A stretch of 64,000 nucleotides of DNA, from positions 2,680,287 through 2,744,286 of the forward strand of contig FN649748.1 of NCBI GenBank assembly GCA_000310025.1, read 5' to 3'. The translations under genes were made by a program, and so were the position numbers. Shown piece after piece: positions 2,237-20,110 of the stretch (its first letter is position 1; every line of letters starts with the position of its first letter). The notes under the pieces are model-generated. The model was not told the DNA's origin and did not search any database. It saw only the letters and a list, made by a program, of their open reading frames with translations. Origin of the DNA: Ectocarpus siliculosus (lineage: Eukaryota; Sar; Phaeophyceae; Ectocarpales; Ectocarpaceae).

Positions 2237-2240
2237 ATCA

Positions 2241-2506
2241 TGTTGTGGGATTACACGCGTAGCGATCCCTGAAGACCCTGATGAAGACTCACTTGTTTAT
2301 TAATCTCTTGGAACAGCAGTGCTTGCTGTTGCCTTGCTCTCAAAGGTAGACTGAGCACAGAGGGGGAGGACATGCTCCCTCTAAAAGGGGCCACAAAGGT
2401 CCTGTCCCCTGTTTTATCCTTCCATCGGGAGTTACATCTCCCGCACTTTCCTCTGGGAATTACTCCGCAATACCGTTGGCACTGGCTACATTCAAATCCC
2501 ATAACA
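2241..2506 (-). repeat. 3' LTR of the Gypsy element
   Basis: This 266-bp copy starts TGTTGTGGGATT and ends CCCATAACA on the plus strand. It matches 14181-14446 except for four substitutions. It sits downstream of pol in element sense. The bases next to it inside the element give a weak purine tract (AGGGTGGG in element sense) that could prime plus-strand synthesis. Confidence 0.96.
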
Positions 2507-3470: not shown

Positions 3471-4193
3471 TCACGAACCGCAGACGGCCGATCCGAGGGT
3501 AGAGTAACGAACAACGGAGAGGGCGATCTTGACCGGTCCGGGGTCGTCGAGGAAGCGTACGATGTAGTGGTCGGCCCGTTCAGTCGGTCCAGAAATCTTG
3601 CCCAGCCACCAGAGTCCATCTTGAGCCTTGTACCAGAAGAACGCACCCACAGGTAGGGGAGTATCGGCGAAAGGACGGTCCCAGGTTGAGCGGGAGACAA
3701 AGGAGTAACCCGGAGGCAAATATCTCTCGCCCTTAGCACGTGCCAATTCGCGTGCGGCTGCGCCAATACGCATTGCACGGTATCGACGATTCGTCTGACG
3801 GTGTTGATCGGGCGTACCCGTCCAATACCGGAGAATCTGCGATCGAGAGTGCTGAAGGTCCATCTCACGCTCCCAAGAAGGGCGGAGAAGACCCTTCCAA
3901 TGTGTCTGATACAGAACTGCGATAACACCACCACGACCGCGAACAGACTGGTGACCAGTAATTTGTTCCACCTCGAGGCGTTCGACCGAAGTCGAGACGT
4001 CATTTTCCGTAACATGATACGGAGGAGATTTGGTCGTATAGTTGTTTAAAACATACTGCGTGAGACCAGTCGGCAGAAACCGTGGCAGGTCCTCAGCGTC
4101 ATGCGGATTAGCGCATGGCTTGCAGCGTGCGACCGAAACACGACGTTTCGAGTCTTTGCCCGGCAGGTCCGACGGAAGATCCAAGTATAACAA
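3471..4193 (-). pseudogene. Gypsy pol C-terminus: chromodomain-like plus Tudor/SH3-like segment
   Basis: This 240-codon frame continues pol downstream of the integrase after a 1-nt frame change near 4190. Residues about 73-124 resemble a chromodomain: a V-E-x-I-type start, an aromatic strand ending in THWKG, then SWE and a final LRYW. Chromoviruses carry a chromodomain at this place, where it guides integration to marked chromatin. Residues about 181-233 (FFWYKAQDGLWWLGKI to YIVRFLDDPGPVK) look like a Tudor or other SH3-like barrel, which would be a second chromatin reader. The first call rests on family position and pattern. The second is a pattern guess. The segment is cut off from the rest of pol in this copy. 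Confidence 0.7.
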
Positions 4194-6078
4194 CTTGGCC
4201 TACAGCCAACACTTTTAACGGACCGGTCCAAAGCAATGATAACTTTGCTTTGAGAACCTGGTCGTCGGTGCCTGATCGAACACCGGAGCGAATGGTAGAT
4301 TCGGTATTATAGATCCAAACCCAATCGCCGATGGTGTAAGTCGGAAGCTTGTGCAAAGCATCCGAGAGAGCGGAATTTCGACGCTCGATCCGAGAAATGG
4401 ATAACTTGTGCTGCTCGCGTACTAGCTCGTAAGCACGACGTTGGCGATCAGCAGCGAGGTCGCAATATTGGAGATGGTCGCGATCCAAACTTTGATGACC
4501 ACGAGCATAAGGATGCTCGATGACAGTCATCGGAAGGCGAGGCAAACGGTTGATATGCACCTCATTTGGTGCTAAACCGGTGGCCGCGCTAACAGAGTTA
4601 TTATAGGCAAACTCTACATGAGGGAGATGGACATCCCAATCATCTTGCCGTTCGTTAACGACCATGGCAAGCATTTGTGCCATAGAATGGTTAACTCGCT
4701 CGACACCACCATTTCCATTAGGATGGTACGAACTGGTGGCCGCTTTGCGAACTGCGAGACGTTTGTAAACGGCTTGTGACAGTTTCGAGCAAAATTGTGT
4801 GCCATTGTCTGATAAAAGACTCAAGGGGCAACCCCACAGAGGGATATACCGATTCACTAAAATACCTGCAGTACCTTCAGCGGTAAACGCAGCAGCCGTA
4901 ACGGCGTACATGTCAGCACGCCGACTAAACCGGTCGGTGAAGAGCAGAATGTAAGTGTTACCCCTAGGGGTAGTCGGCAGTGGGCCGAAATAATCGACAC
5001 TCACGGACACTCCAGGTCCGGACGGCAGTGGCAAGCTTAAAAGGGGCCACCGGGCCGTTTGTCGGGAAGTTTTACGAGCTTGGCACTTGAGGCAATGGCG
5101 AATCCACCATTTGGTACAGACGCTCATGCCTACCCACCAGTAGAAACGCTCTAACATAGACAGCGTACGAGCTACACCAAGATGACAAGACGCATTAGCG
5201 TGACAGATCTGCATGATCCATGGGCGCATCAACATGGGGACGTAAACTCTAATAGGTTCGTCGTTGAGGAGACGTGCCGCACGCCCGCCATGGCGCGTGG
5301 AAGTGGCAGAAGCGGTTGTGGTGGGCTTCTTAACGAGAAGCACTACGTCATCGTCGTCAACGTGCAACCGGCCTTTATGTGCCAGTTCACGGATGTCCGA
5401 AAACGAAGGTCGACGGTGTGACGGAAGGTGGTCAAGAAAACCAGGCGGTAATTCGGGAGGTTGACCTAGAAGGATGTAGCGTATGGCGGCATCGCACACG
5501 TGTTCACCGCGTTGTTCTCGCTCCCAATCAGAATGGGAAAAACGCTCAACCGATTCGCGGAAATCGAGCTCCACGCCCGAAAGCACTGGGGTATCAACAA
5601 CCGGCGGAACACGCACCGAACCAAGCAAAGGTCCAGAGGCGGGCGTCGGCGGTGTCGGGTCTGGGCGAACGGCCATCTCCGGAATTGGACTCAGTGGCGC
5701 CGAAGCGGCGGAATCCACCGGCCGGGGACCCGAAGATTGATGAACGCGAGGCGCACGAGCTACAGACTGAGGAACAGTCGGCTCGAGAAGCGAGTCCTCC
5801 GGCTGGGAAAAACCATAGTCCACAGCCGGGCGCGGAGTACCGGCGGCAGCAGCAGCTCGCCGACGGGTTCGTGTCGAAATTAGATCGGTAGGATCCAGGG
5901 CGCGCCTGGATGAAGCACCAGGGCGTGTAGCGGGCGTTTCTGTCGCATCTTGTACGGAAAAAACACCAGCAGCAGTCGAAACTGCAGAACGACCCGAGGC
6001 GACCAAGGGAGGGCGGTTGCGAGCGGTTGTAGAGCCCGAAGCACCGAAAAAGTCGGGGTTAAACCTCGAACAGACCAA
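4108..6078 (-). pseudogene. Gypsy integrase segment of pol
   Basis: The 656-codon frame starts with a Pro/Ala/Arg-rich linker (residues 1-270). The zinc-binding HHCC domain follows with His293, His299, Cys329 and Cys332. The catalytic core has Asp362 (VDYFGP), Asp424 (LSDNGTQF) and Glu460 (GGVERVN), the D,D35E triad used to join element DNA to the chromosome. The C-terminal part (WTGPLKVLAVG) is the usual SH3-like end before the chromodomain. All catalytic residues are present. The frame is shifted relative to the RT segment near 6065 and to the chromodomain segment near 4190, so this copy would not yield a full polyprotein unless those are sequence errors. Confidence 0.93.
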
Positions 6079-7352
6079 ACGCCCGAGGGAACGTCAGAAT
6101 GAGCGACCGTAGCGCGCGGTCCGTGCTCGCGAAAATCAGCAAAATCAGCTGAAGAAGGCTGTAGCCCACCCAAGACTGAACTCGGGGCGGACGGCACGAG
6201 CCCACCCAAGCCAACACCGGCTTGATGGCCAGAAGGCACAAACCCGCAAGAGCGGATAAAATAAACCGTTTCATCTTCAGCCGACGGAGTCAAACGACTG
6301 CGGCCAGAACGGTCACGCTCGGTAGCTTCTATCGGTAGTCGAGAAAGGAAGTCAGCATTGCCGTTAGACGAACCCTTGCGATATTCAAGAGTGTAGGAGT
6401 ATGCCGTCAGGAACTCCAACCAACGTTGAACGCGAGCGTTGTTTCCCCCCACCTTTGCAAGGTGTTCAAGGGACTTGTGATCCGTGAAAATCTTGAAGTG
6501 GGTGCCCCATAGGTAACCGCGAAGGCGCTTGATGCACCAAATGATACTGCCAGCTTCAAGATCCAGAGGAGTCCAATGACGCTCAGATTCCAAAGTAGCT
6601 CGGCTAACAAAAACGATAGGCCGAATAGAGCCATCAGGTTGTTCTTGTTCCAAAGTTCCACCAAACCCATCTTTACTCGCGTCACAGTAGAGGCGAAAAG
6701 GGCGCGAACCGTCGGATACAGCATCCCAATCTGGATACATCAAAACTGGAGGGTTCGCCAGTTCTTCGAGAAGTTGGCGAAAGACGGATTCCATTGAACC
6801 CGTGAACTCAAACTTCACATTCTTTTTAAGAAGAGTCGTAAGAGGGCGAATACGCTTGGCCATCTGTGGAAGAAACTTCCGGTAATAACCCAAACCACCC
6901 AGCAAAGCTCGAAGCTGCTTGGTGTCTTTGGGCATCGGCATCTTGGTGAGAGCAACAACTTTTTCACCATTGGGCCGAACTCCGTCCGGAGATATAGTGT
7001 GCCCTAGAAACTCGGCTTCCGTGGCGCCAATAGTGGCTTTCGGAGGAGTCAGTTTCAAATTGTGCTCGCGCAATCTTTCGAAAAGAGAGCGAATGGTCGC
7101 TACATGAGCGGCCGGGGTCTCATCAAAGACAATGAGGTCGTCCAGATACGACGCAACACCTCGAAGATTTTTGATGACTTCGTTGACGACCTTACAGAAC
7201 CATCCGGGAGCAGCGGCACTGCCCTGAGGCATTTTCAACCACTCAAACAGCCCAGAAGACGTAACAAACGCCGTGAGGGGGATGGTATCACGATGAACCG
7301 TGATCTGATGGAACGAAGATTTCATGTCAAAGAGAGAATAAATCTCCCCCTT
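5880..7352 (-). pseudogene. Gypsy reverse transcriptase core and RNase H
   Basis: From the Met at 7325, residues 1-100 are the RT fingers and palm, with the FEWLKMPQG motif and the catalytic YLDD at 60-63. The connection domain follows (FLGHTISPDGV, YYRKFLPQMA). RNase H spans about 210-330 with Asp215 (YCDASKDG), Glu257, Asp282 (TDHKSL) and Asp325 (NADFLSR). These enzymes copy element RNA into DNA and remove the RNA strand. The same frame continues upstream to the N-terminal RT segment, interrupted only by a TGA at 7353-7355. After RNase H the frame runs into noise because of a frameshift near 6065. Confidence 0.95.
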
Positions 7353-7802
7353 TCACAATTTGTCCAGAGTATCATCAACTCTAGCAATCGGAAGCTGACT
7401 AAGAGCACAAAGTTTATTCAGCTCACGATAGTTTACGGTGATGCGAACACCACCGGATTTCTTGGGTATAACAACCAAAGGACTCGAGTACGGTGACGTC
7501 GAGTGTTGTATAAGACCCGCAGCAAGATATTGGTCGAGAATAGCGGCCACTTGCTTCGAAACCGGAGGACTAACTCGGTACGGACGAGATGTAACGGGCT
7601 CACTGCCGGAGGGAACGGTCAACTTGGAACAATGAACAAGAACCGAAATCCGTAGGCGAACTGGAAAACACGTCGTGATATTCACATAGCACCTTACCCA
7701 ATTCGGTAATAACGTCCGGTGTCCAACCAAGACCATGTAAATTAAACGTGATTTCTCGCAAGTGACGGGGGAGCTTATCCCACACACGAGAGAAACTGGC
7801 AC
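7353..7802 (-). pseudogene. Gypsy reverse transcriptase, N-terminal part
   Basis: The recognisable portion runs from PSGSEPV to the stop. It contains the RT entry motifs SPYSSPLVVIPKKSGG and NYRELNKLC, ending in DDTLDKL just before an in-frame TGA at 7353-7355. Reading continues in the same frame with KGEIYSLFDM, so the TGA is a nonsense mutation inside RT. The first half of this frame (upstream of about 7635) is not pol. The pol reading enters through a frameshift from the preceding segment. Confidence 0.9.
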
Positions 7803-8376
7803 GTTGATCTGGTGCTAAACGCGCCAAAAGAGCCGGGGAAGGCGAAAGAGGAGTCGAATCAGAAGGATTCGAACCAGGCGCCGGATGCGGCGGTTTGGCG
7901 GTCCGTTCATGCAGATCATACACAAACGAATGAGCCGTCGGTGACGCTGTCGAACCGGAGCCATCGTAGTTAAAAACGGGGCCAGGGTCCGCATGGTCAG
8001 ATTGCGAGGTGTCCGAAACGGGAGTGGGTGAAACGGCGGTGGCCGGAAGACCAGCTCCGTCGGTATCACACGGTAACGCACCAAGAGAAACCTTGAGAAG
8101 GGGCGCTGAAGCGGTACCCAAAACATCACCCGGTTCCAAACTCGAAACTCCCGCTAATGGCACACGTTGACGGTCATGAGTAACAAAATGTTCTTCTGAA
8201 GAAAACATGGACGTTTGAGCAAACATATCTACCAGATAATTGCCCACAAGGGCAGGAGACCCATCACTGCGAACTAAATCAACTGGAACCAGTTGGTGTT
8301 CAGGCAGTAATTGAATGGGATGTCGGCCAGCATATCTAAGCTGGAAACTACCCTCACGAGCAGTGACGTCATGCAC
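7600..8376 (-). pseudogene. Gypsy pol linker between protease and reverse transcriptase
   Basis: About 258 codons. The first 60 residues (REGSFQLRYAGRHPIQL and a following LVPVDL segment) look like a folded connector. The rest is Pro/Ser/Asp-rich. Near the end, CEYHDVFSSSPTDFG matches the motif that precedes RT in Gypsy elements (the host-like '..DVFS....' segment). The frame then shifts near 7635 into the RT frame. Upstream, the reading continues from the protease segment except for the 28-bp duplication at 8399-8454. Confidence 0.85.
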
Positions 8377-8398
8377 AAAAGCTTCAGCACCACCCTGC

Positions 8399-8454
8399 TT
8401 ATGGTGGGCTAAAGTCAGTTCCCCGATTATGGTGGGCTAAAGTCAGTTCCCCCA
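8399..8454 (-). repeat. 28-bp tandem duplication breaking the Gypsy polyprotein
   Basis: A 26-bp block (starting TTATGGTGGGCTAAAGTCAG) at 8399-8424 is repeated exactly at 8427-8452, with a 28-bp period. Because 28 is not a multiple of three, the second copy puts the protease reading into a frame that stops at 8399. With a single copy, the protease frame would run directly into the segment beginning near 8376. This is replication slippage or a duplication in the assembly. Confidence 0.95.
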
Positions 8455-10672
8455 AAACGCGATCATTGGGGCGTCTTGTGGGCAAGGCACGGTAGGAACG
8501 GTCGCTAAAACGCATCCAACTATCCCTGCCGAGCAACACATCATGTTGCATAACACCGTCAGGCACAACATACGCCCAAACGGCGAGAGAAGCGGTCGGG
8601 AATTTTCGCCGAAGAAACTGCACGCTTAAATGGACCATGGTCGACGTTTGAAGGGGGGCGGACTCACCAAACCCTCCCCAACAACGAGGTTGGGTGCGTG
8701 TTTCAAACAACGACGAAGCTGCACCCGCGGCTTTCATGGACTCCCAAGTTCGAGAACTAACGAAAGTCTGGGGTGAACCGGTGTCCAGCAACGCCACGCA
8801 TCCAAATTGCGTAGAAGCCGAGCCACAATGGGTGAGGATTCGTGCAGTGAAAGAGTCATCGTCAACGGTGATTACATCGCCGACTGAACTAGGACCTTGC
8901 TCAGGAAGCAAAGGCGACTGAGGACCAGGATGGTCAGTGTCCCGAGACACAGCCCAAACGCTGTTGTCATGATCGGACGGGACACTAGTGGCGTATTGCG
9001 AAAAGGACGCAAAACGCTCCGAAGACGACGGCACAGGTGCCGTCGACAGCCGTTGATGCGTGGAAGGATTAACTTCGAACACGGTACAACGATCTGGGCC
9101 GGGCGTTTTACCCAAAGCCGCTAAGCGAGAACTACGTTCTGGCTGTGGGGTGTTTGATCGTAATAGTTGGCGAACGTTCTGTAAAGCTGCACCCAACAAA
9201 TTTAGACCACGCCAACGAGACGGACGACAAGCGTCCGGATGATCTGCACGAAGACCGATTCCCCAAATGCAGTCATAAGGACTGGCTTCTACTAAAAGTT
9301 TGTCTCCGGATCCAAGGAGGTGTAGTCTCATCTCTGAATTTTGGGAAAAATTAGCGTAAGAGCCGGTCAGCACGATATTTTCGCGCTCCTTCTCCCAGAG
9401 AGTTTGGTCGAAACCCTGGACCGCACGACCATACTTCTTGTGTAGATCGGGGTCGGAAACTCTCATGATGTTCTGTAGACATTCGCGGTCGCCAAAAAGA
9501 CGAGCTTTCTCTGCAGCAAAAAATTGCTCTGCACACACATACGAAGTACCATCAACGACAAAAGTAGATGGGGTCCATTGACAGAAGGGAGAAGGGGATT
9601 TCCAAAAAAGGACCACGTCTGAATTGGAGTACTCCTGAGTGGCATCGAACCAGCGTCTTTCGAGGACGGGCGATGACGAGAAAGAAGTACGAGCAGGATG
9701 TGTGTCAACTGCTAAACGACCTGAAGTGGGAGACGCCTGGGCAGCATTATGGTCAACATCTTCTGCAGATGGGCCGGTGCCAGGTGTACGGGCAAAGGAA
9801 TTTACGTCCATTGCTAAATTGCCTAAATCAGGGGGTGGGTCCATCGGAGAATTCGAATCCACTGCCGAATTCGCCGAGATAAACGGGGGCGCCACGCTTC
9901 GTATAGGGCTGTCCGTTTCTAGATCTTCTACCGTACCCGCATCCGATCCGGGCCAGGGGGCATATAGATCGCTTTCGCTAGGAGCGGACACCAGTGCTTT
10001 GTCTGTCAATACAACTTTGGACGGTGCAAGGTGCTCCTGGCCGGTCCTCCGTGACAAGGATCGCGAGCATACCGTATTTACGGCGGGCGTCTCTGAAGCG
10101 TCCTCTGGAGACGGTGCTGTCAACACTCTCAACGTCGATCGCGGGATGTTCCTGGTTTGCACCTCTGCACGATCTTTCTCGTTGGCAATTGGTGGGGTCT
10201 GCTTAGCCCCACCGGGCGAGAATCGTCGGTCGGAACCTGACGAAACCACTCTCGGTGCTGCGGCGGCTGGCGGACCAACGGCGGCAGCGAGCACAGACGA
10301 ATCACACGTATCAGAAGACGCATCAGAATTGACCACTTCTGACGAATCCTCCTCAATCATATAAAGCGCGTTGCTCTTGCCGGTCTTACCTGCAGACGCC
10401 GGGGGGAGCTGCCGAACTACACTCGGTGGCCCCGCGCGTCTGGTCGCTCTGTTCCCGCACCTCAAGACGGCACTCCCCTCGGGGGAGTCATTTCCCGAAA
10501 AAGTACCCATCAAAAGAGGCGAAGTAGCAGAGGTTGCAAGCGAAATGTCGGAGGGTAAAAGGGGAACGGCATCGTCTTGTGCATTCTCAACCCTCTTGTC
10601 CGAATATGGAGAAGAAACAGCGGGTGCAAGGGCACCAGCGTTTCGCAGGGCAGGAGCACCTCGCTCCACCAT
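8399..10672 (-). CDS. Gypsy polyprotein segment: linker, NADAR domain, retropepsin
   Basis: This is a 757-codon uninterrupted frame. Residues 1-350 are a Ser/Pro/Asp-rich, probably disordered linker. Residues about 353-505 are a NADAR domain (separate entry). Residues about 604-735 are a retropepsin-type aspartic protease with the active-site motif LLDTGSPQTFVSS (Asp630-Ser633) and the HDVLLGRDSW segment near 710, which matures element polyproteins. The frame is the same as that of the upstream zinc-knuckle segment, separated from it only by a TGA at 10766-10768. No ATG is required if it is made by readthrough. The true N-terminus is unknown. The reading ends early because of the tandem duplication at 8399. 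Keeping 757 codons open suggests selection on this part until recently. Confidence 0.93.
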   Translation of the reverse strand: MVERGAPALRNAGALAPAVSSPYSDKRVENAQDDAVPLLPSDISLATSATSPLLMGTFSGNDSPEGSAVLRCGNRATRRAGPPSVVRQLPPASAGKTGKSNALYMIEEDSSEVVNSDASSDTCDSSVLAAAVGPPAAAAPRVVSSGSDRRFSPGGAKQTPPIANEKDRAEVQTRNIPRSTLRVLTAPSPEDASETPAVNTVCSRSLSRRTGQEHLAPSKVVLTDKALVSAPSESDLYAPWPGSDAGTVEDLETDSPIRSVAPPFISANSAVDSNSPMDPPPDLGNLAMDVNSFARTPGTGPSAEDVDHNAAQASPTSGRLAVDTHPARTSFSSSPVLERRWFDATQEYSNSDVVLFWKSPSPFCQWTPSTFVVDGTSYVCAEQFFAAEKARLFGDRECLQNIMRVSDPDLHKKYGRAVQGFDQTLWEKERENIVLTGSYANFSQNSEMRLHLLGSGDKLLVEASPYDCIWGIGLRADHPDACRPSRWRGLNLLGAALQNVRQLLRSNTPQPERSSRLAALGKTPGPDRCTVFEVNPSTHQRLSTAPVPSSSERFASFSQYATSVPSDHDNSVWAVSRDTDHPGPQSPLLPEQGPSSVGDVITVDDDSFTARILTHCGSASTQFGCVALLDTGSPQTFVSSRTWESMKAAGAASSLFETRTQPRCWGGFGESAPLQTSTMVHLSVQFLRRKFPTASLAVWAYVVPDGVMQHDVLLGRDSWMRFSDRSYRALPTRRPNDRVLGELTLAHHNRGTDFSPP
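9158..9616 (-). other. NADAR (YbiA-like) domain inside the retrotransposon
   Basis: The domain covers residues about 353-505 of the 757-residue segment. Family signatures in order are: FW at 356-357, W366, the AEQFFAAEKA helix with Glu382-Gln383 and Lys389, GR at 415-416, W426, Arg430, QN at 444-445, the hallmark VEASPYDCIWGIGL at 461-474, and WRGLNLLGAALQNVR at 487-501. The length of about 150 residues is normal for the family. Known members include YbiA/COG3236 N-glycosidases acting on riboflavin-pathway intermediates, and NADAR antitoxins that remove ADP-ribose from guanine modified by DarT. In this element it lies between nucleocapsid and protease, so it could be packaged into the particle. 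Its activity here is inferred, not shown. Confidence 0.92.
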
Positions 10673-10765
10673 CCCTGATACACGTACATCTTGTGAAGAA
10701 CGTGCAACATGTCCCGATGGTGCCGAAGGCGGGTCGGGGGAGGTACACGAACCGCCACCGACGAG

Positions 10766-11270
10766 TCAGTTGGACCCACGAGCATTGTGGCCATTCTGAC
10801 CGCCAGATTGGAAATTTCCCGGCTGTCTAGCATTGTAGTTAGACGAAACAGAAGCGCCGGGAGGAGAGCCTGGGTGGACCGACGATTGCGGTCGGTATGT
10901 AGACAGAGCACCAGTGTGATGGGTGTTGTCTGTGGACGGCCGTCGCGAGTTATGAGCAAAATTTCCATTATTGCGACCATCATTCTGGGAGTTACCGTTG
11001 TTGCGGTAGTCGCCTGCGTGATTTCTACGCGAAGACGAAGAGTGACGCTTGTTACACCCGCCACCAGCACCTGAACCGGTGTGTGGCTTGCGACGGTAAG
11101 ACCTCATACGGCCTTGCCAACGTCGGAAAGCGTCAGAGATGTCGTTCAGCTCACCTAGTTCTGGGTTCAACAGACCGCTAGAATTTGTGAAAGGAGCTGG
11201 GCAGTGTTTCATGGAATGGTCATCACCAGAGCAGTTCAAACAACGGGTTACGGTTCTCTCGAAACGCTTG
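10766..11270 (-). pseudogene. Gypsy nucleocapsid segment with CCHC zinc knuckle
   Basis: The knuckle CX2CX4HX4C is at 11201-11242 (CLNC, then DDH, then KHC). It is preceded by a basic FERTVTR stretch and followed by a Gly/Asn/Arg/Ser-rich RNA-binding-like tail of about 130 residues. Such domains bind and package element RNA. Its frame differs from the capsid segment (shift near 11265). It ends at TGA 10766-10768, which is followed by C, a context known to allow stop-codon readthrough in other systems. Downstream the same frame opens again into the NADAR-protease segment. Confidence 0.88.
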
Positions 11271-12830
11271 CGAGCGAGCGTCCTGAGTCAAGAGAGGAGT
11301 CCACAAAAAAGGATCACCGGTGTTACGGAAAGAGGAACTGACTTGGTACACATTCGACCAATCGCCCTGTGTGGCGGGCCATGCACTATAATCACGGGAA
11401 AACGGATCATCACCGCCGCCCTGAGACTGAACTGCCAAAACAACAGGATTTTGTGCAGAACCTTGTGCCCACCGGCCCGAAGGCGCAGGTGGAGGTGCAC
11501 GGTTCTGGGAACGCCGGGGCTGCGAAGAACCAGGCGTGGAAGACAAAGAAAAATACTCTGAACCTCCTATAGCGGGGGTTTTGTTGGTGGCCAAAGGCGC
11601 GAACGCCTGCCACATTGCATCAATCGAGTCAAACGGTGTCACGGCCGTAGCCAGATCACCAGGGTACAGCATCGGAGCCAAAGACGGAAACTGTTTACTT
11701 ACAGAATTCCTGACTATCTCAAGCACCATAGACACGCTAGGAGCCAAAACACGCTCAGATCCTGTGACAGAAGAAACCAAAAGGCGGAACGCCCTAAGGT
11801 GATCCGCAAACAAGGTTCCATTCGAAACACCAAATTGCTGAAGTCGCAAAAACGACTCCTGTCGATCTCCGACATAGAATTGCTCCGACAGCAGCCGCAG
11901 AAGGAGCGTGAAGGCTTCTGGACCCGTGGCTCCTTCATCCAGCCTCCGCTTCACATGCTGAAAATAATCAGAAATGGAGAGGACAAGGTCGGATGTAGTA
12001 GGTTTGTCAGGTGAGATCGCACTCAAAATTCTCTTTTGAAGAGGGCGCTCCCAACCTCGGACAAAATCGGAGTCCATCAAACCGATGCTACGATCATCAC
12101 ACAACATCAAAATATCCGTGAGCGCAGATCGAACGGTGCGAATGAGCTGCTGATATGCATCAGCTGGCAGCAAAGACGCAGGGAAAGGCATAGCGGATAC
12201 ACGTTCAACTTTTTTGAGGTTGAGGGTGATGTACTCACGTTGGACACGAGCAACATGTGCGGCATCAACTACCGAAGCAGCAGCAGCAACCGTTGCATGG
12301 CGAGCGTGAGCAGTGGTGGAAGAAAGCGGCAGAGCACTATCATCGGTGGGCACACTCGCTATGGCAAGAGGCTCTGTTTTTACAGACGGTGGGGCAGCTT
12401 CAACAGCAACACCACTGGGTTCAGTCTTAATAGACGGCTTTGTGTCTGCAACATCAACACCACGGAAGTCTGTCAACTTGACAGACTTGTCACTACGCAA
12501 CACAGTGTTCGAAAACACAAGATGACCATCACGCAGAAGAGCGTTAAGACGATCATCAGAAGCAACATCCACGAGAGACGGTACTACTTGCCTGGAAGAC
12601 CGGCCCGAAGAAGCCTTCCGAGGAAGACTACGCTCCGAGGCGGAGTCCGAGGATGCTCCTCCTGCGGCGTCCGAAGACGGGCGAGAGGTGCGGCTCTTCT
12701 TCTTGACCACCTTCTTGTCCACGCGCTCCGAAGAGCTGGACGCCGAAGAAGACGCTGGAGCACGGCCGCGATGGGAGGGAGCAGATCCGCGGCGGCGGCT
12801 GCTATCGCTGTCGCCAGAGCTGCCGCACGG
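11223..12830 (-). pseudogene. Gypsy gag, capsid segment
   Basis: The open frame runs from about 12830 (after a TAG) to 11223. It starts with a Ser/Lys-rich basic region (DKKVVKKKSRTS), then a helical segment at 11.5-12.2 kb whose pattern (REYITLNLKKV, QKRILSAISP, HLRAFRLLVS) fits a Gypsy capsid. It is followed by a Pro/Gln/Ser-rich linker toward the zinc knuckle. Gag forms the particle. No enzymatic motif is present. The frame is shifted relative to the knuckle near 11265. The start codon is uncertain: no ATG with good context was seen, and coding-like sequence continues upstream in other frames. Confidence 0.8.
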
Positions 12831-13002: not shown

Positions 13003-14044
13003 TGCTACTCGTACAGTTCAAGGGCAGCAGCAGTAGCTGCACGTTCATGAGCGGAAGAAAGCATGGGAGGCGGAGAGGGCACATGGTTAGCAGAAGCTAC
13101 AGCGCGTGCATTGCGAGCCTGGTGACGATTATCACGAGCAAGCGCCTGCTCTCTGTTCTCTTAGAGGTATAACTCTGAGAAGCGGACACTCGGCGCGGCG
13201 GTCACACTACATGTAGCATCAGTATGCACCGACCGAGCGCCCGCGCTGCTTCCCCGAACAGGAATAAGCGATTGTGCTACATGGTTAATAGCAGGCGTAT
13301 CGCAACGTACACCTCGGGAGGTGTTGATGGTCCTTGGTGCGGCTGAGCGCACATCAGAACGAGCACTAACTAGAGCTGCTAGGTGCAACTGCGAGTGCGG
13401 AGGGGTGTTGTACAGCGTCAGAAAAATGACAGTCCCGTCAGCAAAAGACGGGACAAGAGACACTTCACGCGAAGCGAGTGTCGGTCCTATTGCGACTGAA
13501 CGCACATCGGAAGTTCCTAGTGCGACTGAACGCACATCGGAGGGTTGAAGAAGAGCTCCTATTGCGACTGAACGCACATCAGAGGGGTGGGTGGCTACTA
13601 TGCGGAACCAGTGGCCACCACCACATCATCACCAGACACAGCAGTCTCAAAAGGAGACGGAGATGTTCCGGTGGGGGTATGAACGGCATCAACAGCAGAA
13701 CCAATGGATACAAAGGGAGCAGCCGGTTTACGCGCACGCACACTGCTCGGGGCTATAGCCCCACGAGCACGCTCATCCTTTTGGAAAGAGCGGACACTCC
13801 TGGCCTCAGCGCGAAGCTCAGACAGACGTGCGGCCTCTTCTTGAGGATCAGCGGCGCGAGCACCCATTCCATCATGGGGTGCACACAGAGCGTGGTCGAA
13901 AAAGACAGAGGCGACTGCAGGATCAACATGTGATACAGCAGGCAGCGCCTCTGGCGAACCAGGCGGTGGGGGAGGAACCGACTGCAGAGAACTGGCAGGG
14001 CTGGCGGACTCTGAGTCCTCGCTGCCGTCCCTACGATGAGACAT
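13003..14044 (-). pseudogene. Gypsy gag leader segments, frame-broken
   Basis: Three coding-like pieces lie between the 5' LTR and the capsid segment. From ATG 14044 to 13598 there is a 147-codon frame (MSHRRDGSEDSES start) with a Pro-rich stretch and a charged helix (EEAARLSELRAEARS). At 13161-13577 there is a frame containing repeats of DVRSVAIG. At 13003-13160 there is an Ala/Arg-rich piece (EQALARDNRHQARNARAVA). A block with GCGACTGAACGCACATC recurs at about 13490, 13518 and 13565, with a weaker copy near 13340. I take these as the N-terminal part of gag, but the frames do not join. Confidence 0.5.
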
Positions 14045-14163: not shown

Positions 14164-14178
14164 CTGCAGACGACGCCA
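14164..14178 (-). promoter_or_regulatory. tRNA primer-binding site of the Gypsy element
   Basis: Two bases inside the 5' LTR, element sense reads TGGCGTCGTCTGCAG. It begins with the TGG expected opposite a tRNA 3' CCA end. I did not identify the tRNA. The position and the TGG start are what support the call. Confidence 0.7.
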
Positions 14179-14180
14179 AA

Positions 14181-14446
14181 TGTTGTGGGATTACACGCGT
14201 AGCGATCCCTGAAGACCCTGATGAAGACTCACTTGTTTATTAATCTCTTGGAACAACAGTGCTTGTTGTTGCCTTGCTGTCAAAGGTAGACTGAGCACAG
14301 AGGGGGAGGACATGCTCCCTCTAAAAGGGGTCACAAAGGTCCTGTCCCCTGTTTTATCCTTCCATCGGGAGTTACATCTCCCGCACTTTCCTCTGGGAAT
14401 TACTCCGCAATACCGTTGGCACTGGCTACATTCAAATCCCATAACA
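14181..14446 (-). repeat. 5' LTR of the Gypsy element
   Basis: This is the second 266-bp LTR copy, upstream of gag in element sense, followed on the plus strand by the ATCA target duplication. It should carry the element promoter, but I could not assign a TATA box or start site with confidence. The four differences from the other LTR are at or near 2326, 2333, 2340 and 2392 in the 3' copy's coordinates. Confidence 0.96.
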
Positions 14447-14642
14447 ATCATGACACAAGGAGACAGACTCATTCTCCTGAAAATGCACGATATCCAGAAA
14501 GATCCACTATGCGCTGCTGTACATGCGAACAAGTACTGGCTCGCCAATGCATAGAAGAAGAGTAAATGTAGTTGCAGGGCGGTGTCTGGTGTGAATAATG
14601 AGTCTTCTGAAGCTGAATGCTTCAGTATCTCCGACCTAAATT
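14447..14642. other. Spacer between the Gypsy and copia elements
   Basis: These 196 bp separate the Gypsy target duplication (ATCA, 14447-14450) from the copia target duplication (AAATT, 14638-14642). A short plus-strand frame from 14450 (MTQGDRLILLKMH) ends after about 35 codons. I cannot tell whether it is a relic of a host gene. Confidence 0.5.
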
Positions 14643-14880
14643 TGTTGAGGCAACAGCACTGTCACTGCAGTTGCTGTACAGCTATTCCTTCAGCTGTGGC
14701 TACAAAGTAGCTGGCATGTGATGCGAGGTTAGGTAGGCAAACACACAGAGTGATATTATTATCCACACAGACGCCCAAGCTGTCTTCACCTGACGGTTAC
14801 AGACTTGGCAACGCCTTCACAATACCGCATAAACCCATGCAGTAGAATAGAGTCGTTCTTGTACCGCAATTACTCCAACA
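14643..14880 (-). repeat. 3' LTR of the intact copia element
   Basis: This 238-bp copy is identical to 19873-20110 by base-by-base comparison. On the plus strand it starts TGTTGAGGCAACAGC and ends ATTACTCCAACA. On its inner side the element-sense strand reads TTGAGAGGACA, a likely polypurine primer. Related GAGAGGACA motifs recur further in at about 14940 and 14962. Confidence 0.97.
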
Positions 14881-15158
14881 TGTCCTCTCAAGAACTACGT
14901 CATTCTAGTACCTATGCATCAGATCCAATTCTCTCTCAATGTCCTCTCGAAAACAATATCCATGTCCTCTCGAAACAATGCTATCTTAAGAACTTCTGTC
15001 TCAATATCAATTGTTTTGCCTTTCTCAGCTGCGTTGCATCAGCAGCGATTTATTTTCCTTCGACACAAATCTCCCGAATTTTCTTCTAACATATACACAC
15101 ACATACACCATCCAACCCTCAAGACATAAAGTCTGATTACGAAGAAGAGGGGAGGTGA

Positions 15159-18100
15159 TCAAACTCCTAACAGCATGCCACGGGCGCGGAGAAACTCCGA
15201 CGGGTTTAGCCCTTTCGTAAAAATGTCCGCTTTCTGAAGCGACGTCGATATTTGCTTCACGTCTACGACTCCATCAGCTACCAGCGACCTTACGTGGTGA
15301 AACTTTACGTCAATGTGCTTCGTCCTTGGGGTGATACGGAAGCTACGAGTTAATTTTAGAGCTCCCGAGTTGTCCTCCCACACCACGGTTGCTTCTTCCT
15401 GAGTCTGATTTATGGTGTCCAGCAGGTGGCGGAAGTACTTGATGATGTTGCACCCCTTCGACAAAGCCACGAACTCTGCTTCAACGGAAGAGGTCGCCAC
15501 CACCGTCTGCTTGGATGATGTCCATTCCACCGGTCCACCAGCGAAGTACAACACGACTCCCGTGGTGGAGTAGCCCTTGTCTAGGTCGCCTGCAAAATCT
15601 GAGTCGACAAACGCCGTAATGACGTTTCCATCTCCGGCGTCCTCGCCGTAGCGTACACCGATTGATATCGTACCTTTCAGGTACCTGAGTACGCGTTTGA
15701 GTTTCTGCATCGCCCTCGGACCTGGTTTCGCCATACTCCGCGTCAGAACCATTACGGAGTGAGTAATGTCGGGCCTTGTGCACCTGCTGAGATATAGAAG
15801 CGAGCCTGTGGCGGAGCGGAAATATGTGGTATCCTCCGCTGACAGCACCTCGTCCTCCAAGACGGACACCGGTCCAGCCTCAGACGGAGATGTCGTCGGA
15901 CGCGCGTCGGCCATGCCGAACTTGTCCAACACTGCGTTGGTATACGCTTCCTGTTCCAAAAGAATCGTCCCTGCGGCTCTGTCTCGGTTGATTCCCATAC
16001 CGAGTAGGAATCTGGCTCCTCCCAGGTCCACCGTTTCGAAACGCTCATTCAGCTGATCGACTATGCTCAGCACTTTGTTCTCGCCCTCCCCGGTCAGCAG
16101 AATGTCATCCACATAAACGAGAAGGAGCACATCTCCGTCGTCCAGGATGTACAAGCACGGTTCAGCGGTGCTCTCAACAAATCCGATCTTCAGGAGAAAG
16201 TCGTGCAGAGTGCCCCACCAGCCTTTTGGGGAAAAACGCAACCCGTAAAGCCATGCTCTGAGCTTCCAGACTTGCCTGGCTCTCCCGCTGTCGCACGAGA
16301 ATCCTTCCGGGGGAATGACGTACACTGGTTTCGATCTCGGTTCCATCCTCGCGTGGAGGAACGCCGTCCTGATGTCGGCTTGGCGAAGAACAAGTCCATT
16401 CTTGGCTGCATGCGCAACTATCAGATGGACGGCTTGGAGAGACGCTACCGGTGCAGCATTGTCGGTTCCGGTCTCAGCTTCGTAAAATCCTTGCACTACG
16501 ATTCTCGATTTCTGTCGCACAGCGATGCCGGCCTCGTTGTACTTCCATTTGTAGATGTATTTTGACGGGATGATTTGAGCATCGCACGGGGGATCGACCC
16601 ACTCATAAACGTCGTGGTCTAGCAAGGAGCGATTCTCCTCCTCCATGCTTTTCATCCATCCAACAGCATCTGGTCCGTTGACCGCTGCGCGGTAGTTCGG
16701 TGGATCGGCGGGCATGTATCCTAGTTGGCCAGGTATCCCTTGACCAAGGTTCCCGATCTCACCTCCGATCACCAGCGCGTATTCCGTTTCGAACACCTGC
16801 TCCGTCGTAAACAGGTTCAGACGGTCCCGCGGCCTTGTCGTACGACCGCTTTTGCGCACCGCGGGTGGTTCTTCGTCCGGTCCGTCGTTCGTTTCTGCTA
16901 GTTCTGGTTCCTCGTCTTTTGTCTCGGCCCCAGTAGTGATGATGCCGGGCTGGAAAATCTGGCCTTGTTCGGGAAATGGGTCAGACCCGTGCATGGGGCG
17001 GGCGACGTCGCAGGCATCTACCTCGCGGAATGACACTTCAGCAGAGTTTGTAATTTTGAGTGGTTCCGCCGGGTCCCATAGCCGCCACGTCTTGCTGGTT
17101 GTATTGTATCCCACCATGTAATACTTCTTGGCCCTGGCAGAAAACTTATCGTTTCGCGAGCGAGCTTCTACGTGTTTAAACGCTACAGACCCCCACTCAT
17201 GCATGTGCTTCAAGCTGCCGAGTGGTTTGTCCTCCCAAACCTCAAGTGGTGCTTTGCCGTCCAGGACGTCAGTAGGTGTGCGGTTCTTGATGTAAATGGC
17301 GGCCTTCACGGCTTCCGCCCACAGTTGACGCGGTAGGTGCGGAGCTCCAAGCATGAGACTACGTGCTGCACCGATGACGGTCCCGAAACCGCGTTCGGCG
17401 ACAGCATTCCCTTGAGGGACGTACGGGGGGCTTGTCTCCACAGCGATCCCGAAGGACCGACACATTGCTAAGAACCTACCCTTGAAGTCGGCTGCGCCAT
17501 CGCAATGGATTTTCCCGATGCAGATGCCCTCGGGATCGGCGACTTCTTTAATCAGTGTTTCGAGCGCGTCAGTCACTCCATCCTTTGTCTTCAGGGGAAT
17601 GCCCCACCGCATGCGAGATTTATCGTCGGTGAACATTACGATATGCTGACATCCGCTATACGATGGCACACCATGTTTTCCCCACAGGTCGAGATGCATA
17701 AGCATCATTCGCGTCAGTGAACGGGCGCGGCCAACCGGGGGGTGACTCGCCTTCTTGCTTTTGGATACATCGCACACTTCGCAGTCACCTGGTTGAATGT
17801 TGGTGATGAACTTGATGCCGGTGCCTTCCTTATCCGAGAGCTGCTTCAGGGCGCGCGCATTGCAATGTCCCATCCTCCGGTGCCAGACACCGGCATCGGT
17901 ATCGGCACGGAAAACCAGCGGAGAACTAGGCAGGTCGAGATTCAGGTCGTCCAGGATGAGATTCACGACGTACATTCGAGGCACCTCTGCTGTTGATATG
18001 GGGAAAGACAGGTTCCGGCTTCGCAGGGCCGGAGGTGCCGAAAGTAGATCCGTCTTCACCCCCTTCTCATCCAACGCTCCGACAGAAAATATGTTTGCTC

Positions 18101-18491
18101 CAAGATCCCGCACAAGCAGAACCTCCAATTCTATCGGGACGGGTTGACCTTTGTCATTCTTGAGTTTGAACTTCAGCGTACCTTTCTTGGTGGCGCTGGA
18201 TGTGCCGCACGAACCCTTGATGCGGACGTCGCAGTCAACCAAGTCGACTACATGTTGTGAGACTGGGCTCTCGCCGCTTACCATGTGTCCCGAAGCGGCG
18301 GTGTCGATGAACACCCTCGTATGCTCGGCGGGCGCTGTCTTGTCCACTGCACGAAAAACGTTGGTGTACGCGACCAGCTCCTCATGCTGTATCGCGGCAG
18401 GCGGGTCCATTTCCTGCTCGTAGGAGGCAGCAGGCTCCTCGGTTTCCTCTGCTGTGGCACGGCGCAATCGGCACCTGCAATGGGACAGCAC
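15159..18491 (-). CDS. Copia pol polyprotein (PR, IN, RT, RNase H)
   Basis: 1110 codons without interruption. Protease: FIDTAASGHM at 61-70, the copia-type active site with Ala in place of the usual Gly. Integrase: zinc site His204, His209, Cys237, Cys240, and catalytic Asp268 (HLDLWG), Asp331 (HCDGAADFKG) and Glu366 (NAVAERGFG). The CDGAADF variant replaces the more usual SDNGGEF. RT: RIVVQGF near 663, QADIRTAFLH at 704-713 and YVDD at 793-796. RNase H: VDSDFAGD at 962-969, SSVEAEF, WEDNSGAL and TKHIDVKFHH. The frame overlaps the gag end by 110 nt and is +1 relative to gag. The Met at 18491 is arbitrary. Translation probably enters from gag. Confidence 0.96.
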   Translation of the reverse strand: MLSHCRCRLRRATAEETEEPAASYEQEMDPPAAIQHEELVAYTNVFRAVDKTAPAEHTRVFIDTAASGHMVSGESPVSQHVVDLVDCDVRIKGSCGTSSATKKGTLKFKLKNDKGQPVPIELEVLLVRDLGANIFSVGALDEKGVKTDLLSAPPALRSRNLSFPISTAEVPRMYVVNLILDDLNLDLPSSPLVFRADTDAGVWHRRMGHCNARALKQLSDKEGTGIKFITNIQPGDCEVCDVSKSKKASHPPVGRARSLTRMMLMHLDLWGKHGVPSYSGCQHIVMFTDDKSRMRWGIPLKTKDGVTDALETLIKEVADPEGICIGKIHCDGAADFKGRFLAMCRSFGIAVETSPPYVPQGNAVAERGFGTVIGAARSLMLGAPHLPRQLWAEAVKAAIYIKNRTPTDVLDGKAPLEVWEDKPLGSLKHMHEWGSVAFKHVEARSRNDKFSARAKKYYMVGYNTTSKTWRLWDPAEPLKITNSAEVSFREVDACDVARPMHGSDPFPEQGQIFQPGIITTGAETKDEEPELAETNDGPDEEPPAVRKSGRTTRPRDRLNLFTTEQVFETEYALVIGGEIGNLGQGIPGQLGYMPADPPNYRAAVNGPDAVGWMKSMEEENRSLLDHDVYEWVDPPCDAQIIPSKYIYKWKYNEAGIAVRQKSRIVVQGFYEAETGTDNAAPVASLQAVHLIVAHAAKNGLVLRQADIRTAFLHARMEPRSKPVYVIPPEGFSCDSGRARQVWKLRAWLYGLRFSPKGWWGTLHDFLLKIGFVESTAEPCLYILDDGDVLLLVYVDDILLTGEGENKVLSIVDQLNERFETVDLGGARFLLGMGINRDRAAGTILLEQEAYTNAVLDKFGMADARPTTSPSEAGPVSVLEDEVLSAEDTTYFRSATGSLLYLSRCTRPDITHSVMVLTRSMAKPGPRAMQKLKRVLRYLKGTISIGVRYGEDAGDGNVITAFVDSDFAGDLDKGYSTTGVVLYFAGGPVEWTSSKQTVVATSSVEAEFVALSKGCNIIKYFRHLLDTINQTQEEATVVWEDNSGALKLTRSFRITPRTKHIDVKFHHVRSLVADGVVDVKQISTSLQKADIFTKGLNPSEFLRARGMLLGV

Positions 18492-19815
18492 GTTCCAACA
18501 ATGGTAGCGAAGCTGTGGCAGGCGCAGCCAACACCTGCCCTACATTGACATCGGACGCCTCCTCAGGGGTCGATGCAGCAGGCGCAAACGGCACCTGCTC
18601 GGGATCGCCTATGGCGATGTCGAACGATTCCAGCGTGAGGTCGACCTCGCGCGCGTGCGTGAGCCACGCCTGTGTCGTGGCTTCCGCGATCGTGTTGACC
18701 TGCTGCTGCTGCTGCGGTTGCTGTTGTTCACGGTTCGAAAACCGCGTGGCATTGGAGGCGCGAAGCGGGCAGTTCGTCCAGGTGTGTTCCGTAGAATTGT
18801 GACAGTAACTGCATAAGCCGTCCCTGTCGTACCCGCGTCTTTGCTGTGAGTGGTTTGGCCGTCCAGAGGGCCGGTTGTCGGAAGACGCACCACCAGCTCC
18901 GTTGCCAGAAGTTGCGCCGCCATGGTTCTGGTCGTTGCTGTTGTTCCCCCTCGACGACCCGTTGTTACGGTTCGACGAGTTGTTCCAGCTGCCACGTCCG
19001 CGTCCACCGCGCTGCGCGCGTCCACGACCATGATGACCGCCGCCCTTACGGAAAGAACGCGCTCCACCGTGTGTGACGGTATTCAGCGCACGGCTGCTGC
19101 TTCCGGACGCGTTCTTCGAGGCAACTTTACCACGAATGTGCATCGCGTGGAACGAAGTGGCTCGGTCGGCGACCTCCTCGAAGGACAAGACGCTCCCAGC
19201 AGCCTGGCCGCACAGCAGCCCTGTCTTGAACTCTTTGTAGTGGTCGTCCGGCAGTGCTTTCAGGAAAGCGAACGTCTTTCGGTGGTCAGCCACCGTGTCG
19301 TTATACACGGCTAGCTCCGTGCAGATCCGGCGCATGTCTTGAATAACATTGGCCGGATCAAAGTCGTGGTCCGCAGTAACTGCCAAAGATATGAACTTCT
19401 CGTGCAGCTCCTGCGTACGGTATACCCCAGCGGCCTGGTACTTTCGTTCCAGGGCGAGGAATGCTCCACGACCGTCTCCGTTGTAGGAAGACCCGATAGG
19501 CGCGTATGCCTGCACAGTCTGTGAGGCCGCGCTCTGGTAGCCCCCGGTTTCAGATGTAGCGAGCATCAGCCGGGTAAAGATCTGTCCGTTCTTGTCCTGG
19601 TATCCTTCCAGGGCAGTTTGGTATGCCAAAGTCTGGTTTGGCGTAGCGCTTGGTCCAGGATCCGTAGGGGCTTTCTCCACTCCCAACAGAACCTTGTGCA
19701 GCTTGTCCTCCATAAATAAGGAGGTCTGCAGAGTTCGCCAGCCGACGTAGTCGCCTGGGTCACCACTGAACTTGGCGAATCCTCTTCGGATCTCGCCTGA
19801 CGAGCCGGTAGCCAT
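18382..19815 (-). CDS. Copia gag
   Basis: 477 codons from an ATG at 19815. The N-terminal 230 residues are a helical copia-type capsid: a W near 26 (DYVGWRTLQ), FTRLMLATSE near 80 and FLALERKYQ near 119. Residues 250-330 are Arg/Gly/Asn-rich with RGGRGRG, typical of RNA binding. A zinc knuckle follows with Cys335, Cys338, His344 and Cys349 (CX2CX5HX4C, one residue longer in the middle than the standard CX2CX4HX4C). The last 25 or so residues come from reading past the point where the pol frame should take over. The sister element has the knuckle and protease in one frame. Confidence 0.94.
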   Translation of the reverse strand: MATGSSGEIRRGFAKFSGDPGDYVGWRTLQTSLFMEDKLHKVLLGVEKAPTDPGPSATPNQTLAYQTALEGYQDKNGQIFTRLMLATSETGGYQSAASQTVQAYAPIGSSYNGDGRGAFLALERKYQAAGVYRTQELHEKFISLAVTADHDFDPANVIQDMRRICTELAVYNDTVADHRKTFAFLKALPDDHYKEFKTGLLCGQAAGSVLSFEEVADRATSFHAMHIRGKVASKNASGSSSRALNTVTHGGARSFRKGGGHHGRGRAQRGGRGRGSWNNSSNRNNGSSRGNNSNDQNHGGATSGNGAGGASSDNRPSGRPNHSQQRRGYDRDGLCSYCHNSTEHTWTNCPLRASNATRFSNREQQQPQQQQQVNTIAEATTQAWLTHAREVDLTLESFDIAIGDPEQVPFAPAASTPEEASDVNVGQVLAAPATASLPLLERAVPLQVPIAPCHSRGNRGACCLLRAGNGPACRDTA

Positions 19816-19851
19816 GCTTACCGACGCTTGTGACTCTGGTGTACTAGCTCG

Positions 19852-19872
19852 AGCAACTCGAGGCTCAAAACC
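19852..19872 (-). promoter_or_regulatory. Primer-binding site of the copia element
   Basis: Immediately inside the 5' LTR, element sense reads GGTTTTGAGCCTCGAG. The sister element at 23487 has GGTTATGAGCCTCG at the same place, so the site is conserved. The latter is complementary to a CTCATAAC anticodon loop of the kind found in Met tRNAs. Drosophila copia likewise primes from an internal initiator-Met tRNA fragment. The tRNA identity is inferred. Confidence 0.55.
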
Positions 19873-20110
19873 TGTTGAGGCAACAGCACTGTCACTGCAG
19901 TTGCTGTACAGCTATTCCTTCAGCTGTGGCTACAAAGTAGCTGGCATGTGATGCGAGGTTAGGTAGGCAAACACACAGAGTGATATTATTATCCACACAG
20001 ACGCCCAAGCTGTCTTCACCTGACGGTTACAGACTTGGCAACGCCTTCACAATACCGCATAAACCCATGCAGTAGAATAGAGTCGTTCTTGTACCGCAAT
20101 TACTCCAACA
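19873..20110 (-). repeat. 5' LTR of the intact copia element
   Basis: This LTR is upstream of gag in element sense and identical to the 3' copy. It is followed on the plus strand by the AAATT target duplication. The promoter should lie here, but I did not assign a TATA box. Confidence 0.97.

Follow-up and report, generated by a model that had tools for sequence, protein, structure and literature searches.

A NADAR-bearing lineage of Gypsy retrotransposons was published for Ectocarpus in Genome Biology in September 2025 (PMC12477816). According to the same paper, a YbiA-family NADAR also occurs in Tx1 long interspersed nuclear elements of the Pacific oyster, which differ in being retrotransposons without long terminal repeats (LTRs) and in carrying a divergent domain in their open reading frame (ORF) 1. 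Here we analyse a NADAR-bearing LTR retrotransposon in a stretch of 64,000 nucleotides of Ectocarpus siliculosus (contig FN649748.1, positions 2,680,287 to 2,744,286, assembly GCA_000310025.1), referred to below as the window and numbered from its first letter. The finding as such is not new, because PMC12477816 already reports the NADAR-Gypsy fusion, and the initial annotation of the window was mistaken in its guess that an LTR element of this kind was new to the literature. The window element appears to belong to the same family as the published lineage (e.g. Gypsy-12_Ec32); the latter has a putative C-terminal chromodomain, and the window element has a Chromo match (E=0.0098) below the cut-off. 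The main text of PMC12477816 does not use the words 'readthrough', 'stop codon' or 'frameshift', and its section 5 contains no selection or active-site test; we claim no priority over that paper for the readthrough junction or the selection result. We propose, with a probability of about 0.5, that the NADAR of these elements, brought into the particle by a readthrough Gag-Pol, would remove ADP-ribose from guanines of the element's nucleic acid.

Several other systems resemble this one in part. The NADAR of Phytophthora nicotianae (PDB 8bau) and E. coli YbiA (PDB 2b3w) share with the window domain the fold, as predicted here, the catalytic residues and the YbiA-type Glu, but they lie outside any retroelement and are 31% and 28% identical to it, respectively; 8bau carries in addition an extension of the YbiA fold (PMC11543638). 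The DarT1-associated NADAR antitoxins of the BC4488 subfamily belong to the same superfamily and perform the reaction proposed here for the element. They differ in having Asp where the element has Glu and in being linked to DarT, of which the element's genome gave no match. The polyproteins of certain RNA viruses likewise include an ADP-ribose-processing domain, NADAR or Macro, within a replication polyprotein (PMC9503650), but these viruses use an RNA-dependent RNA polymerase and no reverse transcription. Finally, betaretroviruses place a housekeeping nucleic-acid enzyme, dUTPase, in the same slot between nucleocapsid (NC) and protease (PR) and make it by recoding after Gag (PMC4531489). The enzyme is unrelated and the recoding is a frameshift rather than stop readthrough, so that the likeness is one of layout and not of kinship. 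Among the papers listed by our literature search on NADAR in retrotransposons, no further one was recognised as describing a NADAR-bearing element, and the search linking RNA ADP-ribosylation with retrotransposition brought up nothing recognised as bearing on such elements.

The identity of the domain is practically certain. The Pfam profile PF08719 (NADAR) matches residues 356-505 of the 8399-10672 product, on the minus strand, with E=1e-42 and 146.6 bits, far over the cut-off of 35.1. The initial annotation had called the signature at 9158..9616, coordinates that fit this match, with the strand unstated. It had also placed NADAR and a retropepsin in one uninterrupted frame, and the stop-to-stop frame 8402-10765 (788 codons) does hold both the NADAR and the LDTGS motif of the protease. 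In Pfam the protease matches Asp_protease_2 weakly, with E=0.16 under the cut-off. A structural model of NADAR + PR, built from 6 sequences, had a mean pLDDT (predicted local distance difference test) of 41, with about 47-80 in the protease part; compared by Foldseek, this part of the low-confidence model matched the protease of feline immunodeficiency virus with E=0.008 and probability 1.00, and nothing reached E=0.001. The NADAR was then re-modelled alone, and the predicted structure has a YbiA-like fold, with YbiA itself among the best structural matches. A Glu occupies the position of P. nicotianae E125, which assigns the domain to the YbiA subfamily by the published rule of Glu, not Asp or His (PMC11125620, PMC11543638), and not to the BC4488 subfamily of the DarT1-associated antitoxins, which is defined by Asp. 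The nearest named protein, P0002 of Ectocarpus sp. CCAP 1310/34, is 86-87% identical to the window NADAR.

The domain is present in many other copies of the family. In the assembly that holds the window (189.5 Mb, 492 contigs), the 757-residue product has 82 matches, of which the full or near-full ones lie in open frames reaching 2,580 residues, and PF08719 has at least 150 over the cut-off. We read 61 NADAR loci, namely 60 of the at least 150 matches and L008. Fifty-eight of them (L001-L058) form a non-random sample made of the 8 top product matches, the 30 top NADAR matches and the 20 that rank after these. A protease match lies on the same strand in 58 of 58, and a reverse transcriptase (RT) match was found in all 20 loci that reach further downstream (L039-L058). 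Three more loci have more divergent or short-frame NADARs: L059 and L061 have a protease, and L060, which has none, looks like a broken relative of L059. Identity to the window NADAR sorts the 58 copies into five groups: 8 copies in W, to which the window copy belongs, 8 in B, 16 in C, 14 in D and 12 in E. The domain occurs in all five, and a one-off insertion is thus rejected. No stand-alone host NADAR gene that could be a recent donor was seen among the 60 PF08719 matches and L008, and a scan of IMG/VR with the domain returned 6 pattern matches and no relative.

The ratio dN/dS (omega) across copies is not near 1. Under a codon model for all groups, omega was 0.130 for NADAR (46 distinct intact rows), 0.152 for the protease (32 rows) and 0.073 for RT (21 rows). 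The NADAR values by group were 0.44 (W), 0.13 (B), 0.17 (C), 0.15 (D) and 0.36 (E), and omega=1 was rejected in every group, with p=0.024 in W and 1e-4 to 5e-18 in the others; these p-values are approximate, above all that of W, because kappa was fixed at 2 in the null model and fitted in the free model. For the protease, omega=1 was rejected in all four groups run (W, with 3 rows, was left out), and for RT in one of three. The 110 codons preceding the NADAR gave omega values of 1.04 (W), 1.10 (B), 2.45 (C), 1.44 (D) and 1.29 (E), and the same model comparison gave p=0.009 for the 1.44 of group D. With omega at or above 1 in this spacer beside 0.13 in the NADAR, the low NADAR value is not readily explained by age or copying alone. 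The two sets of copies compared are not identical: NADAR rows were kept for 52 of the 58 copies (no stop, at least 150 residues aligned; 46 distinct) and spacer rows for 49 (35 distinct over five groups), and the two subgroups of group C were pooled for NADAR, whereas its spacer value is that of the larger subgroup only (4 distinct rows; the 4 rows of the second were not run). The median pairwise omega of NADAR was 0.28 at dS up to 0.02 (range 0 to 1.19), 0.21 at 0.02-0.1 and 0.106 at 0.1-0.3 (11 pairs), 734 of the 1,035 pairs having no dS value. The contrast persists at greater distances: the NADAR is 53% identical to P0003 over 160 residues without a gap, and the stretch before it 20%. A passive passenger left by accidental capture would be in keeping with the decay of the window copy downstream of the protease and with an omega that falls only to 0.44 in group W. 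The contrast between NADAR and adjoining spacer, together with the presence of the domain in every group studied, makes this exceedingly improbable, and we reject it on the omega comparison.

The catalytic positions are conserved as well. The residue equivalent to P. nicotianae E43 is kept in 57 of the 58 genome copies and that equivalent to K50 in 56, and the window has both. The Glu at the E125 position is present in 56 copies, the remaining two showing a gap and a stop. Nothing direct speaks for a non-enzymatic role of the domain as an ADP-ribose binder or a structural spacer, apart from a D86 contact that varies by group and the few copies without E43 or K50. Such a role is improbable, since each of the three catalytic positions is retained in 56 or 57 of the 58 copies, spread over five groups, and binding alone would hardly need both glutamates. 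The profile match, presence across the family, omega, active-site residues and near-neutral spacer together bear out the view of the initial annotation that an intact-looking NADAR was captured by the element and kept by selection. Of the three outcomes named there as refuting (no NADAR match above threshold, a one-off insertion, dN/dS near 1), none occurred. The window copy itself is broken after the protease, and functional conclusions therefore rest on the family and not on this copy.

Copies from each of the five groups have a UGA, with C after it, at the opening of the frame that holds the NADAR. In examples from groups W, D and E, where the zinc knuckle of NC is readable in frame, this very UGA closes the Gag/NC frame; the knuckle is in another frame in L004, and its pattern was not found in L002 and L003. 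The position between nucleocapsid and protease given in the initial annotation is correct as to order, but NC and NADAR, although in frame, are split by the UGA and do not share a single open frame. The downstream motif of the junction was seen in 31 of the 58 loci; 20 others (L039-L058) stop short of the junction, and the motif was not found in 7. By script, 29 of the 31 are UGA-C, and 19 of these lie in the NADAR frame of the same copy. On direct reading L002 also has UGA-C, and in L017 the site is hidden by a later TAA. The 44-46 nt after UGA-C can fold into a stem-loop in six of six representatives, with z-scores of -1.26 to -3.25. In each of them the 5' arm, rich in G, pairs with a 3' arm rich in C, and in group E a G-C pair is replaced by A-U on both sides, as judged by eye. 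An Rfam scan of 10600-10900 gave no match. Murine leukaemia virus produces Gag-Pol by stop readthrough from the same layout (PMC5009743). We consider it likely that UGA-C and the possible stem-loop between Gag and Pol form a stop-readthrough signal in these Gypsy-type elements and, from the same Gag-UGA-Pol arrangement, that the NADAR travels in the particle.

This arrangement also bears on a role in small-molecule metabolism, in which the NADAR would destroy a soluble ADP-ribose-derived defence signal or toxin, or clear damaged riboflavin or NAD intermediates. Soluble ADP-ribose derivatives are regarded as the likelier targets of phage NADARs in a review of viral NAD systems, which also names riboflavin intermediates as substrates of an N-glycosidase role (PMC9503650), and the appearance of YbiA among the best matches of the predicted structure may point the same way. 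The Gag-UGA-Pol layout, however, would aim low amounts of the domain at the particle and not at the cytosol, and the review itself prefers macromolecules as targets where NADARs of eukaryotic RNA viruses are concerned. We regard a small-molecule role as rather unlikely.

The domain seems to have entered the elements from bacteria. A tree of 60 NADARs joins 24 element rows in a single group with support 94/93 (89/79 with fewer rows); these rows come from the window's genome, from unnamed public contigs and from Ectocarpus sp. CCAP 1310/34. Among the 36 other rows, mostly of unnamed source, those with a name are bacterial (Planctomycetota, Nannocystis, Myxococcota) except P0021, from the alga Chrysoparadoxa. 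P0081 and P0107, among the nearest outside rows, are labelled Myxococcota, and in a scan of prokaryote genomes the four best among the matches listed were Myxococcota, 52-55% identical. The simplest reading of these relationships is a single uptake from a bacterial gene by the ancestor of the elements, before the groups split; PMC12477816 presents a similar horizontal-transfer view, from blastp. As to a clue to function in bacterial gene neighbours, the 9 ORFs scanned at L067 and L068 (2 of at least 80 loci) gave only the NADAR and a DUF4340 protein. Two further architectures were seen among the collected proteins: P0009, an MMETSP transcript, joins a weak alpha/beta-hydrolase-like part to NADAR, and in P0015 the NADAR lies within a 1,139-residue protein.

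Taken together, guanine de-ADP-ribosylation in the particle would proceed as follows. One bacterial NADAR gene would have been taken up by an ancestral element and kept by selection at the start of Pol. Pol, including the NADAR, would be made only when ribosomes read through the conserved UGA, so that the domain would enter the particle within Gag-Pol and then be freed by the protease. There, beside genomic RNA and single-stranded cDNA, it would strip ADP-ribose from guanines, and the template would stay readable for RT when host or microbial ADP-ribosyltransferases modify it. NADARs, including YbiA, have been shown to remove ADP-ribose from guanosine both in RNA (PMC11833690) and in DNA (PMC11125620). 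This published activity agrees with the role suggested in the initial annotation, in which the domain may protect the element's RNA or cDNA or blunt a host defence. NADARs were inactive on ADP-ribose at RNA phosphate ends (PMC11833690), which speaks against another way of handling the element's RNA, the repair of ends or cap processing of the RNA intermediate. Processing of RNA intermediates is what PMC12477816 proposes in broad terms, following a hypothesis for the polyprotein NADARs of RNA viruses (PMC9503650). RNA 2'-phosphotransferase (KptA) had no match in the genome, in an exon-by-exon search that may miss it. We hold this RNA-end role to be doubtful.

Several observations weigh against guanine de-ADP-ribosylation by a particle NADAR. 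The YbiA proteins tested elsewhere did not protect cells against DarT1 (PMC11125620), and on RNA the E. coli YbiA showed lower activity than the DarT1-linked NADAR (PMC11833690). The genome search for DarT gave 0 matches, and no guanine-modifying host enzyme was identified. The catalytic losses among the genome copies fall in group W (E43 in 1 of 8, K50 in 2 of 8), two public rows lack K50 and one lacks E125, and the D86 contact is not conserved. At the junction, 10 of the 29 UGA-C sites found by script are out of that copy's NADAR frame, with a shift between; the z-scores of the stem-loop are modest, and when 61 nt are folded instead of 45, the two B copies and L004 fold otherwise. For RT, the test fails to reject omega=1 in two groups out of three, with few rows (p=0.085 and 0.17). 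Finally, a single uptake has tree support (94/93) that narrowly misses the tool's star.

The host genome contains four PARP-type exon matches and one partial macrodomain match, on contigs C12, C472, C15 and C455; these are a candidate writer and a candidate eraser, respectively, of ADP-ribose marks. A counter-defence can tentatively be pictured in which host ADP-ribosyltransferases mark guanines of retroelement RNA or single-stranded cDNA and the particle NADAR, brought in by readthrough Gag-Pol, wipes the mark off before or during reverse transcription.

The element runs from 14446 down to 2241 on the minus strand and is, judging from its LTR ends, target duplication and the order PR-RT-RNase H-integrase, of Ty3/Gypsy type. 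Its clear ends and target duplication had been recognised in the initial annotation, and direct comparison agrees: the LTRs end in TG...CA and differ at 4 positions, with the same 4 bp on either side. In its own direction the element comprises an LTR, a candidate primer site, Gag, the zinc knuckle, an in-frame UGA, a spacer, NADAR, the retropepsin-like protease, RT/RNase H, integrase and a weak chromodomain-like stretch. The window copy changes frame near 8400, 7600 and 6000.

Features of the NADAR-bearing element in the window
Feature	Position	Strand	Remarks
3' LTR, TG...CA ends	2241..2506	-	266 bp
5' LTR	14181..14446	-	262/266 identical to 3' LTR
Target site duplication ATCA, beyond 3' LTR	2237..2240	.	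read directly
Target site duplication ATCA, beyond 5' LTR	14447..14450	.	read directly
Candidate primer binding site TGGCGTCGTCTGCAG, 2 nt inside 5' LTR	14164..14178	-	position only
Gag open frame	11226..12830	-	position; no Pfam match
Nucleocapsid zinc knuckle CLNCSGDDHSMKHC (CX2CX4HX4C)	11201..11242	-	Pfam zf-CCHC_4 only E=0.19
In-frame UGA, then C, between NC and Pol	10766..10768	-	copies of all five groups
Predicted stem-loop right after UGA-C, candidate readthrough stimulator	10719..10764	-	fold z -1.98 in window
Spacer before NADAR, 110 codons, near-neutral	9638..9967	-	omega 1.04 in window's group
NADAR domain, residues 356-505 of 8399-10672 product	9158..9607	-	PF08719 profile, model
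Glu382 (= P. nicotianae E43, E. coli C7 E88)	9527..9529	-	
Lys389 (= P. nicotianae K50, E. coli C7 K95)	9506..9508	-	
Glu462 (= P. nicotianae E125), YbiA-subfamily Glu	9287..9289	-	
Retropepsin-like protease (LDTGS)	8402..8902	-	weak by sequence and by model
Region following protease, other frame in window copy (broken)	7603..8436	-	
Start of reverse transcriptase, beyond further frame change	7356..7814	-	no Pfam match of its own
Reverse transcriptase + RNase H	5883..7352	-	RVT_1 E=2.4e-21, RT_RNaseH E=1.4e-31
Integrase, H2C2 zinc binding + core	4111..6093	-	Integrase_H2C2 E=6.9e-13, rve E=7.9e-08
Chromodomain-like segment, Pol C-terminus	3822..3974	-	Chromo E=0.0098, 16.2 bits (Pfam cut-off 25.1)

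Further features were noted in and beside the element. The stretch from the UGA to the NADAR (9638-10765 in the window) measures 280-435 residues by group and is near-neutral in its last 110 codons. After the chromodomain-like segment, the region 3474-4199 (minus strand) includes a stretch, WYKAQDGLWWLGKI...YIVRFLDD, that looks Tudor-like by eye and has no Pfam match. The leader holds four related 36-nt repeats at 13329-13589, 67-100% alike. Beside the 5' LTR, at 14638-20000, lies another LTR element, which from its long Pol frame (15159-18491, minus strand) looks Copia-like; its 133-nt repeats at 14638 and 19868 are 98% alike, and the latter touches the edge of the searched region.

The family now offers testable material: a small, well-modelled domain, known catalytic residues, a defined assay for the substrate and a candidate readthrough junction. 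If the NADAR acts on the element's nucleic acid, ADP-ribosylation of RNA or DNA would be a real pressure on eukaryotic retroelements, and eukaryotic NADARs, whose physiological role has so far been described as unclear (PMC11125620), would gain a biological setting. Should the tentative counter-defence be true, nucleic-acid ADP-ribosylation would be an unrecognised defence against retroelements in these algae, and the long-kept NADAR would be its footprint.
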